Below, piece by piece: positions 1-16,846 of a DNA stretch of 22,041 bases (positions are counted from its first letter, which is position 1; every line of letters starts with the position of its first letter). The position numbers and the translations under genes are program-made. The stretch lies in IMG/VR virus record IMGVR_UViG_3300020201_000103, positions 1-22,041 of that record. One strand, written 5' to 3'. Source of the DNA: a virus. The notes under the pieces were generated by a model that ran no database searches, was not told the DNA's origin, and was given only the letters and a program-made list of their open reading frames with translations.

Positions 1-45
1 TCTTCAACTTCTTCTTCATCTTCTTCTTCATCTTCATCTTCATCG
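1..45 (-). repeat. GATGAA/GAAGAA simple-sequence repeat encoding an acidic run
   Basis: On the minus strand this is a hexamer-like repeat of GATGAA and GAAGAA units. It encodes about 15 nearly consecutive Asp/Glu residues in the DUF6291-like protein. The unit length is a multiple of three, so gain or loss of a unit would change the acidic run without shifting the frame. Confidence 0.7.
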
Positions 46-377
46 GTTACTTTGCTTACTTTTGCTAAGCTTTGCTTACTTTTGCTTACTTTTGCTTTAA
101 CTCCCCATCTCTTTTGAGAACTGGCTAATCCGCCCTTTCTACCTGCTTCGGCCCTTGCCTCTTTTACTTCTGAGTACTTTTTGTCGTCGATTTTGAGCTG
201 TATTTTTATGAAGTTAAATGCCATTTTTATATGCGAAGGTAAGTCTATAATTTCCCCGGATATTTCGTACTGAAAGATTGCTCTAAAGAGAAGTCCAAGA
301 TCTTCGTTGGAGAAATCCCCTATTGCCTCGTAAAAGGTAAGGTATATTAAAAAAGACTTTTTGTTATTTTTATCCAT
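1..377 (-). CDS. DUF6291-like phage protein, probable replication-module gene (3' end cut by window)
   Basis: The reading frame opens at ATG 377 and runs off the left edge with no stop, giving at least 125 residues. The protein starts MDKNNKKSFLIYLTFYEAIG. It continues with an amphipathic stretch (DLGLLFRAIFQYEISG), then HIKMAFNFIKIQ, and then EARAEAGRKGGLASSQKRW at about residues 73-91. This order (KKSF, two short helices, MAFxFIKxQ, then a RSEAGRKGG-type basic hinge) is what I know as DUF6291. That family is found in phages of low-GC bacteria, usually near replication initiators. After the hinge come a Lys/Ser/Ala-rich stretch built from a DNA tandem repeat and a run of Asp/Glu. The gene lies beyond the late-operon terminator and has its own putative promoter, so it probably opens the replication module. 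A role in replication initiation is inferred; a C-terminal domain may lie outside the window. Confidence 0.75.
   Translation of the reverse strand, partial: MDKNNKKSFLIYLTFYEAIGDFSNEDLGLLFRAIFQYEISGEIIDLPSHIKMAFNFIKIQLKIDDKKYSEVKEARAEAGRKGGLASSQKRWGVKAKVSKSKQSLAKVSKVTDEDEDEEEDEEEVE
51..100 (-). repeat. Five tandem 10-bp repeats inside the DUF6291-like gene
   Basis: On the plus strand the units are tttgcttact (51), tttgctaagc (61), tttgcttact (71), tttgcttact (81) and tttgctttaa (91). They follow each other with an exact 10-bp period and three are identical. Ten is not a multiple of three, so successive units are read in different frames, giving the KVSK/SKQS/LAKVSK pattern. A one-helical-turn period is typical of protein-binding arrays such as iterons. 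Several phages carry their origin inside the initiator gene, so an origin role is possible but only inferred. Confidence 0.6.
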
Positions 378-804: not shown

Positions 805-1164
805 TTAGTGAAGTAACGCTTGTGTTTCTTCTAGCTTAGTATGTAATTTAGCAATAGTCTTTGGGTCGTTCTCTTGAGCCAACATTTTGGTTCCTGAATC
901 AACTGCGTATTGCTGTAGTAAGTTGTAAACAACAGTAAGGAACGGAGTTAAACCATCAAAAATTAGTTTAATGTAATCGTTCGTTAGAGTTGCATTATAT
1001 TCAGTAATATCTCTAATTAAAAGATTAGTAAATCCAGATGCAACGAATGAAATTAAAACCATTAAGGCAATCTTAACTTTTGGATGAAGGGAGTTGTAAC
1101 CCTTAGCAATTAATTTGCTTAAACCTCCGAAGAAGTTTGAAAGTCCTGTTTTTATCTTTTCCAT
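805..1164 (-). CDS. Holin-like small membrane protein
   Basis: The protein has 119 residues. A basic amphipathic N-terminus (MEKIKTGLSNFFGGLSKLIA) precedes two hydrophobic segments at about 30-50 and 64-86, followed by a polar C-terminal tail. The gene overlaps the end of the GH25 lysozyme gene by 13 nt, which fits a lysozyme-holin pair that is translated together. If it is the holin, it would sit in the cytoplasmic membrane and time release of, or access to the wall by, the lysozyme. Size, two membrane segments and position support this; I do not recognise the exact holin family. The second hydrophobic segment contains Asp, Thr and Pro and is less certain. Other phage membrane proteins could look the same. 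Confidence 0.55.
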   Translation of the reverse strand: MEKIKTGLSNFFGGLSKLIAKGYNSLHPKVKIALMVLISFVASGFTNLLIRDITEYNATLTNDYIKLIFDGLTPFLTVVYNLLQQYAVDSGTKMLAQENDPKTIAKLHTKLEETQALLH

Positions 1165-2258
1165 AATTTTTTAATTAAATTAATAATAAATATAATTAGA
1201 TTAAACCCTGTTGTAGGTTTCTCAGGCTCTGTAGGCACCTCTGGTTCAGGTGTTGGCTTTAAGAATGAATCAAGTTTTTCAATTGTACTTTTAGTTTTAT
1301 TAATTCTTAAAAGGTCAATAGTTTTTCCGGGAGTCATTTCTATTTGCTGGATTTTAAAGGCATTGACCGCATCTGATTCTAATTCAAACTCGAATTCTAT
1401 AATATCATTTCCGGAAATATCCACTCCATAAACAATAATATCAGGAGCTATAGGCCTTGTATAAAAGTCTAGTTGATCCTTGGTATTTTTCGTTTTGTTA
1501 ACTCTTATAAGTGCGACCGAGGCTCCTTGAGCAAGTACAGTTTTCTGCTCATTAAATTTAGCTCGGGCCTCATTTTCGTCGTTGAATTCCTGAAGGAGTG
1601 TTCCATTAATTAAAACTTGGAACTTTATAATATCGGGAACTTCAACAACAGGTGGTTGATAACCATACTTTTTAAAGGTATTTATATCTCCGAAGAAGAC
1701 ATTTAAATCTACGTCGCCACCAATTCCGTTAACTCTTCCAGTAGCAGAGTATTGTTTCATAGCAATTACAGGCCATTGAGTTTGAGGGGCAGTGTCGGGA
1801 TTTCCATCCCATAAAGCTAACCACAAACCGAAATCTCCTCTTACCACCCTACCCCAGTCTCCTTGAGTAGCTTTTGAAAGATTTATGTAGAGTAGAGGCT
1901 TATAACCGATTTTATTTTTTATATATTCTAGGAAAATAGATGCCCAGTTTCTCCAGTCGTCAAAAGTTGACCAGTTCTCTTCCATATCCAGAACTAAAAC
2001 CTCATCTTTATCAGGAGTTCCAACAACATCTAAAAACCATTGAGCTTCTTTTTCGGGGATATTATATTGTGGGTAAGCATAGTGATACATTCCATGAGGA
2101 ATGCCTAATCTTCGACATTCATTTCTGCTTCTATCAAATTGAACGTCTCTATACCCAACTCCGTAACTAGATCTAATGATGATAAACTCTTTCACTTGCT
2201 TAACAGCATTGAAATCATAAGCACCCTGCCATGTTGAAGTATCTATTCCAAGAGCCAT
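1152..2258 (-). CDS. Endolysin: GH25 lysozyme with two tandem repeats and a hydrophobic C-terminal tail
   Basis: A 368-residue protein. Residues 1-195 form a GH25 (Chalaropsis-type) muramidase that cleaves the beta-1,4 bond between MurNAc and GlcNAc. Visible signatures are GIDTSTWQG (D6), VLDMEEN (D91 and E93, the catalytic D-x-E) and GGDVDLNVF (D182). Residues 209-269 and 273-334 are two diverged copies of one module, each ending RVNKTK/RINKTK-x-T-x(3)-LD-x-[FY] or similar; I do not recognise a named family and infer a wall-binding or spacer role. A Pro/Glu linker (335-349) leads to GFNLIIFIINLIKKLWKR, a hydrophobic then basic tail. There is no N-terminal signal peptide, so export would need the holin. 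The start ATG at 2258 begins directly with the catalytic fold. The tail is unusual for a GH25 endolysin and could contact the membrane. Confidence 0.9.
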   Translation of the reverse strand: MALGIDTSTWQGAYDFNAVKQVKEFIIIRSSYGVGYRDVQFDRSRNECRRLGIPHGMYHYAYPQYNIPEKEAQWFLDVVGTPDKDEVLVLDMEENWSTFDDWRNWASIFLEYIKNKIGYKPLLYINLSKATQGDWGRVVRGDFGLWLALWDGNPDTAPQTQWPVIAMKQYSATGRVNGIGGDVDLNVFFGDINTFKKYGYQPPVVEVPDIIKFQVLINGTLLQEFNDENEARAKFNEQKTVLAQGASVALIRVNKTKNTKDQLDFYTRPIAPDIIVYGVDISGNDIIEFEFELESDAVNAFKIQQIEMTPGKTIDLLRINKTKSTIEKLDSFLKPTPEPEVPTEPEKPTTGFNLIIFIINLIKKLWKR

Positions 2259-2726: not shown

Positions 2727-3077
2727 TCACTTTGGCGTTACGGTTTTGAAGTTGCACTCGAACTCATCATTTACTGTAGGAGTAGCTCCTAATGAAGAGA
2801 TTTGATTTTGAAGGATACAGATATTGGAAGATAGCTTATCTATCGTTAGTTGTTGGGTTGTAATTTTACCGTTCTGTTCTTCTAATTTTATATTTAATTC
2901 CTCTAATGAAGTTTGATTATTTCTAATTTCTATTAGAAGCCGATCTTGATCATTGGTCTTATCTACAAAGGTAAAGTAGATGAACCACGCAATACCTATG
3001 AGGATGAGAAATCCAAATATGGAGGTTAATAATGGAGTGTTTCGAACCACGAATTTATAGGCCTTATTCATTTTCAT
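2727..3077 (-). CDS. Single-pass membrane protein with coiled coil (spanin-like candidate)
   Basis: I place the start at the in-frame ATG at 3077 (MKMNKAYKF, 116 aa). A longer frame from 3149 would overlap the previous gene by 86 nt, and its extra residues look like an out-of-frame shadow. A second ATG at 3071 has AAGGA 8 nt upstream and is also possible. A basic N-terminus precedes one strong membrane helix (SIFGFLILIGIAWFIYFTFV). A long heptad-like region rich in Gln/Asn/Leu/Ile follows, and then a C-terminal part with two cysteines. This layout (N-in, one helix, external coiled coil) is that of an inner-membrane spanin, and the gene lies near lysis genes. No lipoprotein-type outer partner is visible, so a spanin role is only a possibility. 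A tail-associated or general membrane protein is the alternative. Confidence 0.45.
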   Translation of the reverse strand: MKMNKAYKFVVRNTPLLTSIFGFLILIGIAWFIYFTFVDKTNDQDRLLIEIRNNQTSLEELNIKLEEQNGKITTQQLTIDKLSSNICILQNQISSLGATPTVNDEFECNFKTVTPK

Positions 3078-3351
3078 GTTCCTTCGCTCTGGCGTACTGT
3101 CTGTCTTCAATTCGGGTTTTGAGAGCCCTAACAGTTCTTTTGTTTCCATAATTAGGTATTAAGTTATCAAGTAATTCTAGAAATAAGAAAGACAAATCAT
3201 CGGTGGACTCCGCCTGTTTATCGATTTTCTGCCCATTTGCCTTTGTTACTCTCAACTGTTCTTGAGTAGATGTTTTATCTTTATTTATTAAATATACAAT
3301 AAAAAGACCCGAACCACCAAATGTTGAAATAAAAAGTCCTATTTCATCCAT
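3064..3351 (-). CDS. Small membrane protein of unknown function
   Basis: The protein has 95 residues. An N-terminal hydrophobic segment at about 5-22 (LFISTFGGSGLFIVYLIN) is followed by a Lys/Gln/Glu-rich polar region and then a second moderately hydrophobic stretch (LSFLFLELLDNLIP) at about 53-66. The C-terminus is charged and helical (RTVRALKTRIEDRQYARAKE). It starts after an 86-nt AT-rich gap following the fibre gene, the longest gene-free gap between the tail and lysis genes; I see no convincing promoter there. Its end overlaps the next membrane protein gene by 14 nt, suggesting coupled expression. It may be part of the lysis set (an accessory holin or spanin partner), but no family signature is visible. 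Confidence 0.5.
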   Translation of the reverse strand: MDEIGLFISTFGGSGLFIVYLINKDKTSTQEQLRVTKANGQKIDKQAESTDDLSFLFLELLDNLIPNYGNKRTVRALKTRIEDRQYARAKEHENE

Positions 3352-5753: not shown

Positions 5754-7118
5754 TTAATTATTAACAACTAACATTCCACCGGTATTTGTTGGGATTATTC
5801 GAGTACTTTTTTCTGCGTTTTGATATCTTTGAATGATTAGGTAATCCTGAACGGTTAACTTAGTTACTGTACCGGAGTCTTTATCAACCAATAATATCAC
5901 TCTTTCAGACCCAGAAGAAGTGTCATATACTGCAAACTTTCTGTTATCTAAAAGTGATTTAAAAGGATCCGTTTGAGAGGTAATGGAAAAACCATCTTTA
6001 TCGAATCTGAAGCCTTTCCCATAAACTTCGTTTGGTGCTTGAACCCATCCGTTAATATCGCCCCTTACTATTACTATATCACTAATTGTAAGTTCTCCAT
6101 CTGTATAGGCGGTATTATCTATATTTAAAGTGGTGCTGGATCCTGTCGCAGTAAACTGCCTCTTGAAGGTCGCCCAGCTTAAACTCTCGGGTAAAGTTAT
6201 CCCCCCAGACACACCAGTTAAGGTAATATCGGTATCTTCTGCAGATTTATATCGGAAATATAATGTATACATTTCTCCCTCGATCGTAGATATAGTTTGT
6301 TGAATATACTGCTCCGCCAAGAAGAATGCAGATCCACTTTCAGTATTCACAGTTGTATCAGAAGTTTGATCAATTGTTGCATCGTTGTCCGCATCTATTA
6401 AGTCTCCTTCGGTATCAAATAATTGCCATTCCTCTATACTTTCTTTTAACCCTGCAGAATTCTTAATTAAGTTTATTCCTCCGGTTTGAGATACTTTTAA
6501 CGTTAAAGCCTCGGCAGTTTGCTGAAGCTCGGTTACGTCTTCTTGGATAATCGTAATGCTATCTTCGTTGGCATCGATTCTGTTTTGTGCATTATTTACC
6601 TGCTCGGTAATTGCCGATATGGAGTTTGTAATAGAGTCAGTCAGAATAGATATCTGAGCGGTATTTCCTTCCATATCTGCGTTCAGAATTTCAATCAGTC
6701 CCTTTTGCTTATTTACTATGATTTCAGTATTTCTAATTCTTCGGCCAATGATTCCTGCAGTATCATAATCGGTTTTAGTTTTATCAGGTGTTTTTGCGAG
6801 TATAGTTTCCGATACTCCACCGGTAATGTTTATGGTTATATCCAAAATGACGACTTCTGCTTCTACACCGTTAGGATCTTTCACTATAATTCTGTCTCCG
6901 ACTTCGAAGTATCCTAATCCCATCGTATCTGCAGAAAAGGGTTTAAATGAAGTTCCTATTAAGGCAGTAGCTATGGGGACAATGGCAGTCTCCCTGTCAG
7001 CGTCAACGATTAAATTATTTACTATTCTAAACTCTAAAGGCACGACCTCATCTAGAAGAATGTTTGATCCATTCTCTAAAAGTAATACGTCTCCATTTTC
7101 GAGTAATAAAAAACTCAT
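5754..7118 (-). CDS. Tail-tip (Tal-like) protein, C-terminal half encoded separately
   Basis: A 454-residue protein. Residues 1-24 are a low-complexity LLLENGDVLLLENGSNILLDE segment. Residues 27-140 (FRIVNNLIVDADRETAI, GYFEVGDRI, TPDKTKTDYDTAG, RNTEIIVNKQ) match what normally forms the middle of a Tal/prophage tail-endopeptidase-type protein, where it follows the SRQPQEDN segment that ends the gene at 9426..10160. Residues 145-210 are coiled coil. Residues 213-355 begin NLIKNS and look like a carbohydrate-binding-type beta sandwich. The C-terminus (GFRFDKDGFSIT onward) is a common fibre-tip ending. I infer that this is the detached C-terminal half of the tail-tip protein and that it must assemble with the N-terminal half. 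The start codon overlaps the previous stop (TAATG). No peptidase motif is seen. Confidence 0.7.
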   Translation of the reverse strand: MSFLLLENGDVLLLENGSNILLDEVVPLEFRIVNNLIVDADRETAIVPIATALIGTSFKPFSADTMGLGYFEVGDRIIVKDPNGVEAEVVILDITINITGGVSETILAKTPDKTKTDYDTAGIIGRRIRNTEIIVNKQKGLIEILNADMEGNTAQISILTDSITNSISAITEQVNNAQNRIDANEDSITIIQEDVTELQQTAEALTLKVSQTGGINLIKNSAGLKESIEEWQLFDTEGDLIDADNDATIDQTSDTTVNTESGSAFFLAEQYIQQTISTIEGEMYTLYFRYKSAEDTDITLTGVSGGITLPESLSWATFKRQFTATGSSTTLNIDNTAYTDGELTISDIVIVRGDINGWVQAPNEVYGKGFRFDKDGFSITSQTDPFKSLLDNRKFAVYDTSSGSERVILLVDKDSGTVTKLTVQDYLIIQRYQNAEKSTRIIPTNTGGMLVVNN

Positions 7119-15982: not shown

Positions 15983-16846
15983 TTAGACTGAGATGTTGTT
16001 ATCTGCACTCAATGCTGCTTTAAAGATCAAATCTGCCATAACTGCTTTAGTTCCGAGGAAGTAAGGCAAGTATGCGTAAAGATCCTCAGAGAATTGAGCC
16101 TCGTCAACTTTGAAATCTCCCATTACAACTGGCTGAGCAACTGATCCTACAACTTGGATTACAGCGTCTACAGTTTGTCTTACAGCTGGTTCGATCACAA
16201 CTCTGTGAAAGAATCGAGCATTTACTCCACCGTTTAAAGGGTTAGGTAAAGTGCTTGTTAATGTTTCTAATGCATCGTAGAACGCAGGAGCTAACGTTAA
16301 CACCATAAGGCTTCTATCTACCTTTTGAACATGCTCATTTTGAACAGCTTCTAATTTCTCAATTAAAGCTACTAATTTCGCTTCAAGTGTTCCATAAGAA
16401 GAAGTATCGAATGTCGCACCGGCTGTCTGTAACTGAAGGAAGTAGTTATTTTCTAACTCAACTCCCATAGCTAAAGCGTAGTCGTCTTTTCTGTCTTTCA
16501 ATAGAGCATCAGCACCTCCAGCAAGATAAAGTTTTCTATCTTTAAGAGACATTTCTTCTGCGATTTCTCTATCAGTATCGATTTTTACATCAACACCGTT
16601 GTTCTGCAATTTATTACCAGCTTGAGCAGTTCTAGCTGTACCGTATGCTTGAGATACGGATGATTTGAACCTTTTTACATGCACAGTACCACCTTTAACA
16701 GGTGCTTCTGAATAGTTGGTGTTCTTATATCTTTGTGAGATAAAGCCAGCAACTATTGTCCCTTGGATTTTTCCGTAGGTTTGCATTAGTTCATCCCTAG
16801 TCGAACTATTTCCATAGTTGATTGAGGTTGCTTTTTGATTTCCCAT
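15983..16846 (-). CDS. Major capsid protein (HK97 fold)
   Basis: A 287-residue protein following the scaffold gene. Blocks are INYGNSSTRDELMQTYGKIQ, VKGGTVHVKRFKSSVSQAYG, VKIDTDREIAEEMSLKDRKL, DRSLMVLTLAPAFYDAL, GGVNARFFHRVVIEP and DDA-free strands ending in ALSADNNISV. The order (N-arm, strand with E-loop region, long helix with VELENNYFLQL, then P- and A-domain segments) and length suit an HK97-fold coat protein of the Gram-positive siphovirus type. There is no fused protease or long prohead delta domain; assembly would use the separate scaffold. It starts 33 nt after the scaffold stop with the leader TTAGATAACCAAAC and no Shine-Dalgarno, notable for what should be the most expressed protein. 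Confidence 0.88.
   Translation of the reverse strand: MGNQKATSINYGNSSTRDELMQTYGKIQGTIVAGFISQRYKNTNYSEAPVKGGTVHVKRFKSSVSQAYGTARTAQAGNKLQNNGVDVKIDTDREIAEEMSLKDRKLYLAGGADALLKDRKDDYALAMGVELENNYFLQLQTAGATFDTSSYGTLEAKLVALIEKLEAVQNEHVQKVDRSLMVLTLAPAFYDALETLTSTLPNPLNGGVNARFFHRVVIEPAVRQTVDAVIQVVGSVAQPVVMGDFKVDEAQFSEDLYAYLPYFLGTKAVMADLIFKAALSADNNISV

Follow-up and report, generated by a model that had tools for sequence, protein, structure and literature searches.

A GH25 endolysin with an unrecognised tandem module and an amphipathic C-terminal end similar to those of other lysins in its phage lineage

Introduction

Endolysins of Gram-positive-type phages are usually viewed as soluble enzymes with a wall-binding domain, and in the lysins of Gram-positive phages these domains mostly follow the enzyme. 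According to one source, such lysins usually carry wall-binding domains, the Enc34, M4Lys, and Siskin endolysins of enterobacterial phages end in a C-terminal transmembrane domain, and the route by which an Enc34-type enzyme reaches the wall is left open (PMC8943055). A C-terminal amphipathic helix that acts on the outer membrane is described for LysTS3, LysTS6, LysSPN1S, LysJEP4, and LysAB2 in a second source (PMC11929351). Both transmembrane and amphipathic C-terminal elements have published precedents (PMC8943055, PMC11929351).

The stretch of DNA analyzed here (the window) is a virus record of 22,041 bases from an uncultured phage. Its endolysin is unusual in two respects: a tandem module that is unrecognised and a putative membrane-seeking end that recurs in the lineage.

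Results

The Endolysin Gene and Its Catalytic Domain

The original prediction, made from the sequence, had described a GH25 endolysin with two diverged module copies, a Pro/Glu linker and a hydrophobic-basic tail. The region that it covered (1152-1634, minus strand) corresponds to residues 209-368 and the stop codon, and the architecture is as first described (table 1). The GH25 assignment is borne out by PF01183 (E = 1.5e-28; 100.8 bits against a cut-off of 27) and by the PHROGs match to the endolysin family phrog_291 (E = 2.6e-46). GH25 was the sole Pfam family found in the lysin up to E = 1; the PHA02564 enzyme family lies outside the libraries searched. The top PDB match (phmmer, E = 4.8e-18) was muramidase M1 (1jfx), which shares the GH25 catalytic domain, and the catalytic domains of the lysins of Enterococcus phage Athos and Arthrobacter phage Lymara are 33.8% and 38.0% identical to that of the window lysin (approximately residues 1-198). 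Residues D6, D91, E93, and D184, which we take to be the catalytic acids of GH25, are invariant in all five sequences of an alignment (A3). Judged by its sequence, the catalytic part is an ordinary GH25 endolysin.

Table 1. Positions of the endolysin, its parts, and the adjacent holin candidate in the window.
Feature	Position	Strand	Basis
Endolysin gene, 368 aa: GH25, two modules, Pro/Glu linker, C-terminal helix	1152..2258	-	ORF, Pfam, PHROGs
GH25 muramidase domain, residues 5-179	1722..2246	-	PF01183, alignment A3, phmmer to 1jfx
Module 1, residues 209-271, predicted beta-beta-alpha-beta-beta	1446..1634	-	self-alignment, AlphaFold2
Module 2, residues 272-336, diverged copy of module 1	1251..1445	-	self-alignment
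Pro/Glu-rich linker, residues 337-350	1209..1250	-	sequence
Amphipathic basic tail, residues 351-368, motif IKKLWKR	1155..1208	-	sequence, AlphaFold2, shuffles
Holin candidate, 119 aa	805..1164	-	ORF, hydropathy scan

Relatives of the Lysin and Sister Phages

An identical lysin is present on contig IMGVR_UViG_3300020192_000046, which differs from the window by 4 mismatches across a compared stretch of 13,492 bases and is uninformative with respect to conservation. Apart from this copy, no full-length homologue was found in 52 of the 80 portal records, the genome contigs, or the cultured phages. The remaining matches in the 52 portal records cover the GH25 part only (G018 and G019) or are marginal (G043, E = 0.008), and the search of the genome contigs gave no relatives of the lysin. 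A total of 146 records of cultured phages match the lysin. Among the 40 of these that were listed, most alignments end near residue 200 and three run well past residue 250 (H1 to 279, H2 to 329, and H3 to 281). The three were rejected as module carriers: one is a module-free lysozyme, another has a different C-terminal part, and the remaining one is a LysM lysin; a module profile gave nothing significant against their proteins, and in lacking the modules they differ from the window lysin.

Because full-length homologues were missing, sister phages were identified through the portal and two tail genes. Loci L145-L155 show 42-52% identity to the window tail protein at 5754-7118, and L203 was found through the other tail gene (48% identity). 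Either a Pfam family or a position after the tail genes served to locate the sister lysins; no lysin was found in the fragments L149, L152, and L154. The ten lysins of the lineage are those of the window (GH25), four with an M23 domain (G026, G024, G457, and G455), three with an Amidase_2 domain (G033, G460, and G456), and G030 and G459, which were counted as lysins by position and show no catalytic Pfam match up to E = 0.1.

Several side observations were made on these loci. By eye, the lysins at L203:3335-4267 and L155:14670-15797 share an unrecognised domain (ELYxKxNNLxMRVxSGSIN...ATVKNxTKGTSW) and differ in their N-terminal parts. Past the window, the near-identical contig contains several ORFs that by eye resemble glycosyltransferases and a methyltransferase (L087:10329-15957). 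This contig also carries a phage-borne bPH_2 domain protein (L087:16743-17150, PF03703, E = 1.7e-16) and a tRNA-Met gene (anticodon CAT, L087:9309-9380) that is the sole tRNA gene in the 16 loci scanned.

The Tandem Module

The two copies of the module (about 63 residues) are 39% identical to each other. Their Smith–Waterman score is 98, whereas 2000 shuffles averaged 22.8 and did not exceed 49, and the shared endings RVNKTK and RINKTK begin at lysin residues 252 and 318. Neither module alone matched any Pfam or PHROGs family up to E = 10, including SH3b, LysM, CW_7, and choline-binding modules, and residues 202-368 gave a single match in the two libraries (phrog_21127, nucleotidyltransferase, E = 0.12). 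A tblastn search with residues 202-336 against 50,697 phage records returned no match at E = 10. Scans of IMG/VR with patterns from the module pair and from a two-row alignment of the copies (A1) found nothing except the contig with the identical lysin; such scans require exact short patterns and may therefore miss distant relatives. Alignment A1 gave three weak matches in 392 genomes of the phylum of G058, by eye a long helical protein, a PheT-like protein and a UvrB-like protein, which were judged to be chance matches. The claim of an unrecognised tandem module thus withstood the profile search that had been proposed for it.

A structure prediction of one repeat had also been suggested. With the two copies as alignment, AlphaFold2 predicts for module 1 a beta-beta-alpha-beta-beta fold with a pLDDT of 95.6 (95.6, 92.9, 92.6, 90.4, and 57.4 for the five models), consisting of strands 3-9 and 12-17, helix 20-33, and strands 39-46 and 51-59. 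In the model of the full-length lysin the order of the elements of module 1 is retained at lower confidence and module 2 is not resolved (residues 254-316, pLDDT <50). A Foldseek search of the PDB with the module 1 fold returned 543 matches, none of which reached E = 0.001, and VIA-align ranked LepA first (Z = 6.5), followed by Rubisco small subunits and others, a list from which absence does not exclude a family. The PDB matches (fungal immunomodulatory proteins, Rubisco small subunit, and LepA) were non-significant and were not used. Among 1019 matches in a viral structure library, one reached E = 0.001: A0A223LHJ1, an uncharacterised protein of 68 aa from Erwinia phage RisingSun with a predicted structure (TM 0.80, 25% identity). 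Further small phage proteins of no known function have TM values of 0.75-0.80 at weaker E-values, and a peptidoglycan hydrolase of Bacillus phage G matches weakly (TM 0.58, E = 0.081).

The position of the modules suggests a role in wall binding. Alternatively, they might serve solely as spacers or oligomerisation units, corresponding to coiled coils in the sister lysins. Several sister lysins have weak coiled-coil-type Pfam matches at the position of the modules, which in G026 and G030 are preceded by an SH3-like match, and the resemblance of the fold to free-standing small phage proteins points in the same direction. However, a duplicated compact domain suits binding, and wall-binding domains are usual in lysins of Gram-positive phages (PMC8943055); a role solely as spacers or oligomerisation units is rather unlikely.

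The C-Terminal Tail and the Overlapping Holin Candidate

After the Pro/Glu linker the lysin ends in GFNLIIFIINLIKKLWKR, the hydrophobic-basic tail that had been described at the outset. AlphaFold2 predicts residues 352-367 to be helical, with block pLDDT values of 72 and 74. No 19-residue stretch of the lysin attains a mean Kyte–Doolittle value of 1.4, which argues against a C-terminal transmembrane domain; predicted helix, hydrophobic moment and charge characterize the end as an amphipathic basic helix.

The last 13 bases of the lysin gene, at the end of the tail, are shared with the start of the holin candidate, which raises the question of whether it is functionless, a by-product of the A+T-rich start region of the next gene. 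The G+C content of the tail DNA is 7.4%, a level to which only 0.018% of all 54-nt stretches in the window fall, and 15 of the 18 shuffled codons (stop included) consist of A and T only, as such a by-product would have it. Nevertheless, the properties of the tail exceed those of shuffled versions of this DNA (54 nt, 1152-1205, covering 17 of the 18 tail codons and the stop codon; 5000 shuffles each of bases and of residues). The best hydrophobic moment over 11 residues (0.86) was reached by 0.08% of the base shuffles and 1.0% of the residue shuffles, and four K/R among the last six tail residues by 0.36% and 0.42%, respectively. Together with the similar tails of sister lysins that are free of such an overlap (see below), this makes a functionless tail unlikely.

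The holin candidate exceeds the hydropathy cut-off at residues 32-50 and by eye contains a second, weaker segment. It has no Pfam match, matches phrog_36143 (function unknown) at E = 0.014, and in an IMG/VR pattern scan returned a 98%-identical copy and nothing else. A frameshift fusion of lysin and holin was considered and dropped: by eye there is no good slippery site, and a stop codon lies just before the holin start. The ORF to the left of the holin candidate, cut off by the window edge, contains a Glu-rich repetitive stretch (TTC repeats on the plus strand; window 1-60, L087:4666-5367).

Similar Ends on Other Lysins of the Lineage

The tails of the sister lysins were assessed from sequence. 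A motif, [ILVMFW].K[ILVF][FW].{0,2}[KR] within the last 25 residues, was formulated after the tails had been seen. Six of the ten lineage lysins carry it in amphipathic helix-like ends (window IKKLWKR, G026 LHKLFGTK, G033 IGKVFGK, G030 LVKLFSK, G024 LDKLFPRK, and G457 LKKFFEKK), where it is confined to the end and absent elsewhere in the protein, and these six include three Pfam-confirmed catalytic families (GH25, M23, and Amidase_2). The motif was absent from all 21 distinct complete wall-hydrolase proteins of more distant relatives. These controls were chosen by Pfam domain (24 proteins of five families in 40 other records, minus one contig-end fragment and two duplicates), and some of them, for example CHAP proteins, may be virion hydrolases rather than lysins. 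In the sister loci, 2 of the 235 remaining ORFs with a length of 100 aa or more have the motif near their end, as do 9 of 2136 in a broader collection of loci, part of which is also sister sequence. The hydrophobic moment of the last 22 residues is higher in the ten lineage lysins than in the 21 controls (Mann–Whitney, p = 2.9e-4; p = 6.6e-4 without the window lysin); as the motif is post hoc and the phages are related rather than independent samples, the motif counts and p values are descriptive.

In G026, G030, and G033 the next listed ORF on the same strand begins 62 to 172 bases past the lysin stop codon, indicating that such a tail is more than the product of an overlap with the next gene; in G024 an ORF of 76 aa overlaps the lysin end. 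In G459 the amphipathic end is weaker, and a clear tail is missing from G460. Two further lysins have borderline C-terminal hydrophobic segments: G455 (L145:8605-9915, M23) at residues 369-387 of 436 and G456 (L146:6648-7511, Amidase_2) at residues 257-275 of 287, with values of 1.56 and 1.53 against the cut-off of 1.4. A comparable segment of G460 (1.52, residues 230-248) lies by eye within a domain. By eye, hydrophobic ORFs lie upstream of both G455 and G456, whereas directly downstream no membrane ORF of at least 70 aa is evident. A profile comparison of their segments with the holin candidates of the sisters revealed no homology (L145 at E = 0.2, L146 not listed up to E = 100), and calling them holin fusions is only a guess. 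The lysin of L145 ends in a weak EF-hand match. Outside the lineage, the control amidase G481 combines a Pro-rich linker with an amphipathic end that lacks the motif, which shows that amphipathic ends are not limited to the lineage.

The comparison shows that ends alike in predicted character recur on unrelated catalytic domains within the lineage, and recombination or convergence may account for this. The original prediction had proposed that the tail inserts into or disrupts membranes, as in some endolysins active on cells with an outer membrane, or tethers the enzyme before lysis. The recurrence in six of ten lysins across three enzyme families lends indirect support to a membrane-active or tethering tail, and the tail probably has a genuine role in host lysis through contact with a membrane.

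Translation Signals, Host, and the Membrane Contacted

With a Shine–Dalgarno site defined as a 4-base match at -18 to -5, no site precedes any of the 25 window genes, and among 19 additional genes on the sister contig 1 has such a site. The share in L145-L155 and L203 is 0% to 33% (at most 3 of 9, in L150), and in the more distant L157-L201 it is 29% to 100%, touching the range of the sisters; L156, which has only a short match to the window, has sites in 5 of 9 genes. Fifteen portal or terminase relatives, the near-identical contig included, have shares of at most 17% and the remainder 27% to 100%. In the window, L087, L145-L155, and L203 the leaders are A+T-rich with few or no Shine–Dalgarno sites. 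Portal relatives in genomes belong to Bacilli, Clostridia, and their kin and, unlike the window, most of these loci use Shine–Dalgarno sites. A monoderm host with little Shine–Dalgarno use, for example a Patescibacterium, would fit. A literature search on Shine–Dalgarno use and phage lysis in Patescibacteria and their kin yielded nothing useful.

A diderm host, whose outer membrane the tail would break or cross like the helices of some Gram-negative phage endolysins, would account for part of these data. A lack of Shine–Dalgarno sites is also known from Bacteroidota, cultured-phage matches of the terminase have mostly Gram-negative hosts, and the G024 lysin has three cultured-phage matches, one of them in a Microcoleus (cyanobacterial) phage. 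The general shape of the tail, moreover, matches that of the helices described in PMC11929351. However, the cultured-phage matches of the portal, tail, and lysin have mostly Gram-positive hosts, and no spanin pair was recognised in a PHROGs run that covered 10 of the 25 window genes, the nearest candidate being the ORF at 2727-3149 with an Rz-like match (phrog_739) at E = 0.065. An outer-membrane role, as the original prediction had offered, is therefore quite improbable, and contact with the cytoplasmic membrane is favored over disruption of an outer membrane because the relatives are mostly of the Gram-positive type.

At 2727-3351 lie two small ORFs of 95 and 140 aa that overlap, each with one hydrophobic segment over the cut-off. 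In the second ORF a region resembling a coiled coil by eye comes after this segment, and a role in lysis is possible. The ORF at 15983-16846 (probable capsid protein) has no match among cultured phages.

Discussion

The preferred reading, to which a probability of roughly 0.55 is given, is that the window lysin is a wall-binding lysin with a membrane tether. As expected for its family, the GH25 domain would cut glycan strands; the two modules, lying between enzyme and linker, would attach to the host wall or keep the enzyme at a distance from the membrane, and the Pro/Glu linker and the amphipathic basic helix would dock the lysin on a membrane. Most likely the tail would hold the lysin at the cytoplasmic membrane, beside both wall and holin lesion, and the tethered enzyme would thereby act at the export site without diffusing away. 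A weak membrane perturbation that aids export is possible.

A wider and rather speculative extension concerns the lineage as a whole, with its low Shine–Dalgarno use and, perhaps, hosts among the Patescibacteria. In this lineage a short C-terminal membrane helix might be a portable lysis part that is attached to muramidase, M23, and amidase enzymes and that in some members is swapped for a transmembrane domain, which maybe does the job of the holin. If this is true, membrane-held endolysins would be the rule in the lineage, and unrecognised modules, among them the tandem module of the window, would belong to its set of wall-binding modules. Recurrent membrane elements at the ends of a lineage's lysins, independent of the enzyme, would suggest that lysis there involves contact with the membrane. 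These points are relevant to how phages lyse uncultured hosts, and unrecognised modules would be new parts for lysin design.

The window lysin resembles the Enc34, M4Lys, and Siskin endolysins in having the enzyme first and a membrane element last, and differs in its parts: an Enc34-type endolysin joins a PHA02564 enzyme to a two-helix transmembrane domain, whereas the window lysin joins a GH25 domain to two extra modules and a short amphipathic end (PMC8943055). With LysTS3, LysTS6, LysSPN1S, LysJEP4, and LysAB2 it shares an amphipathic, charged C-terminal helix; those helices belong to enzymes active on Gram-negative cells, whereas the helix of the window lysin follows two modules and a Pro/Glu linker and the cultured-phage matches of this lysin are mostly Gram-positive (PMC11929351 for the five enzymes). 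As far as found in a non-exhaustive literature search, the new part is the recurrence of such an end on unrelated enzymes in one lineage.
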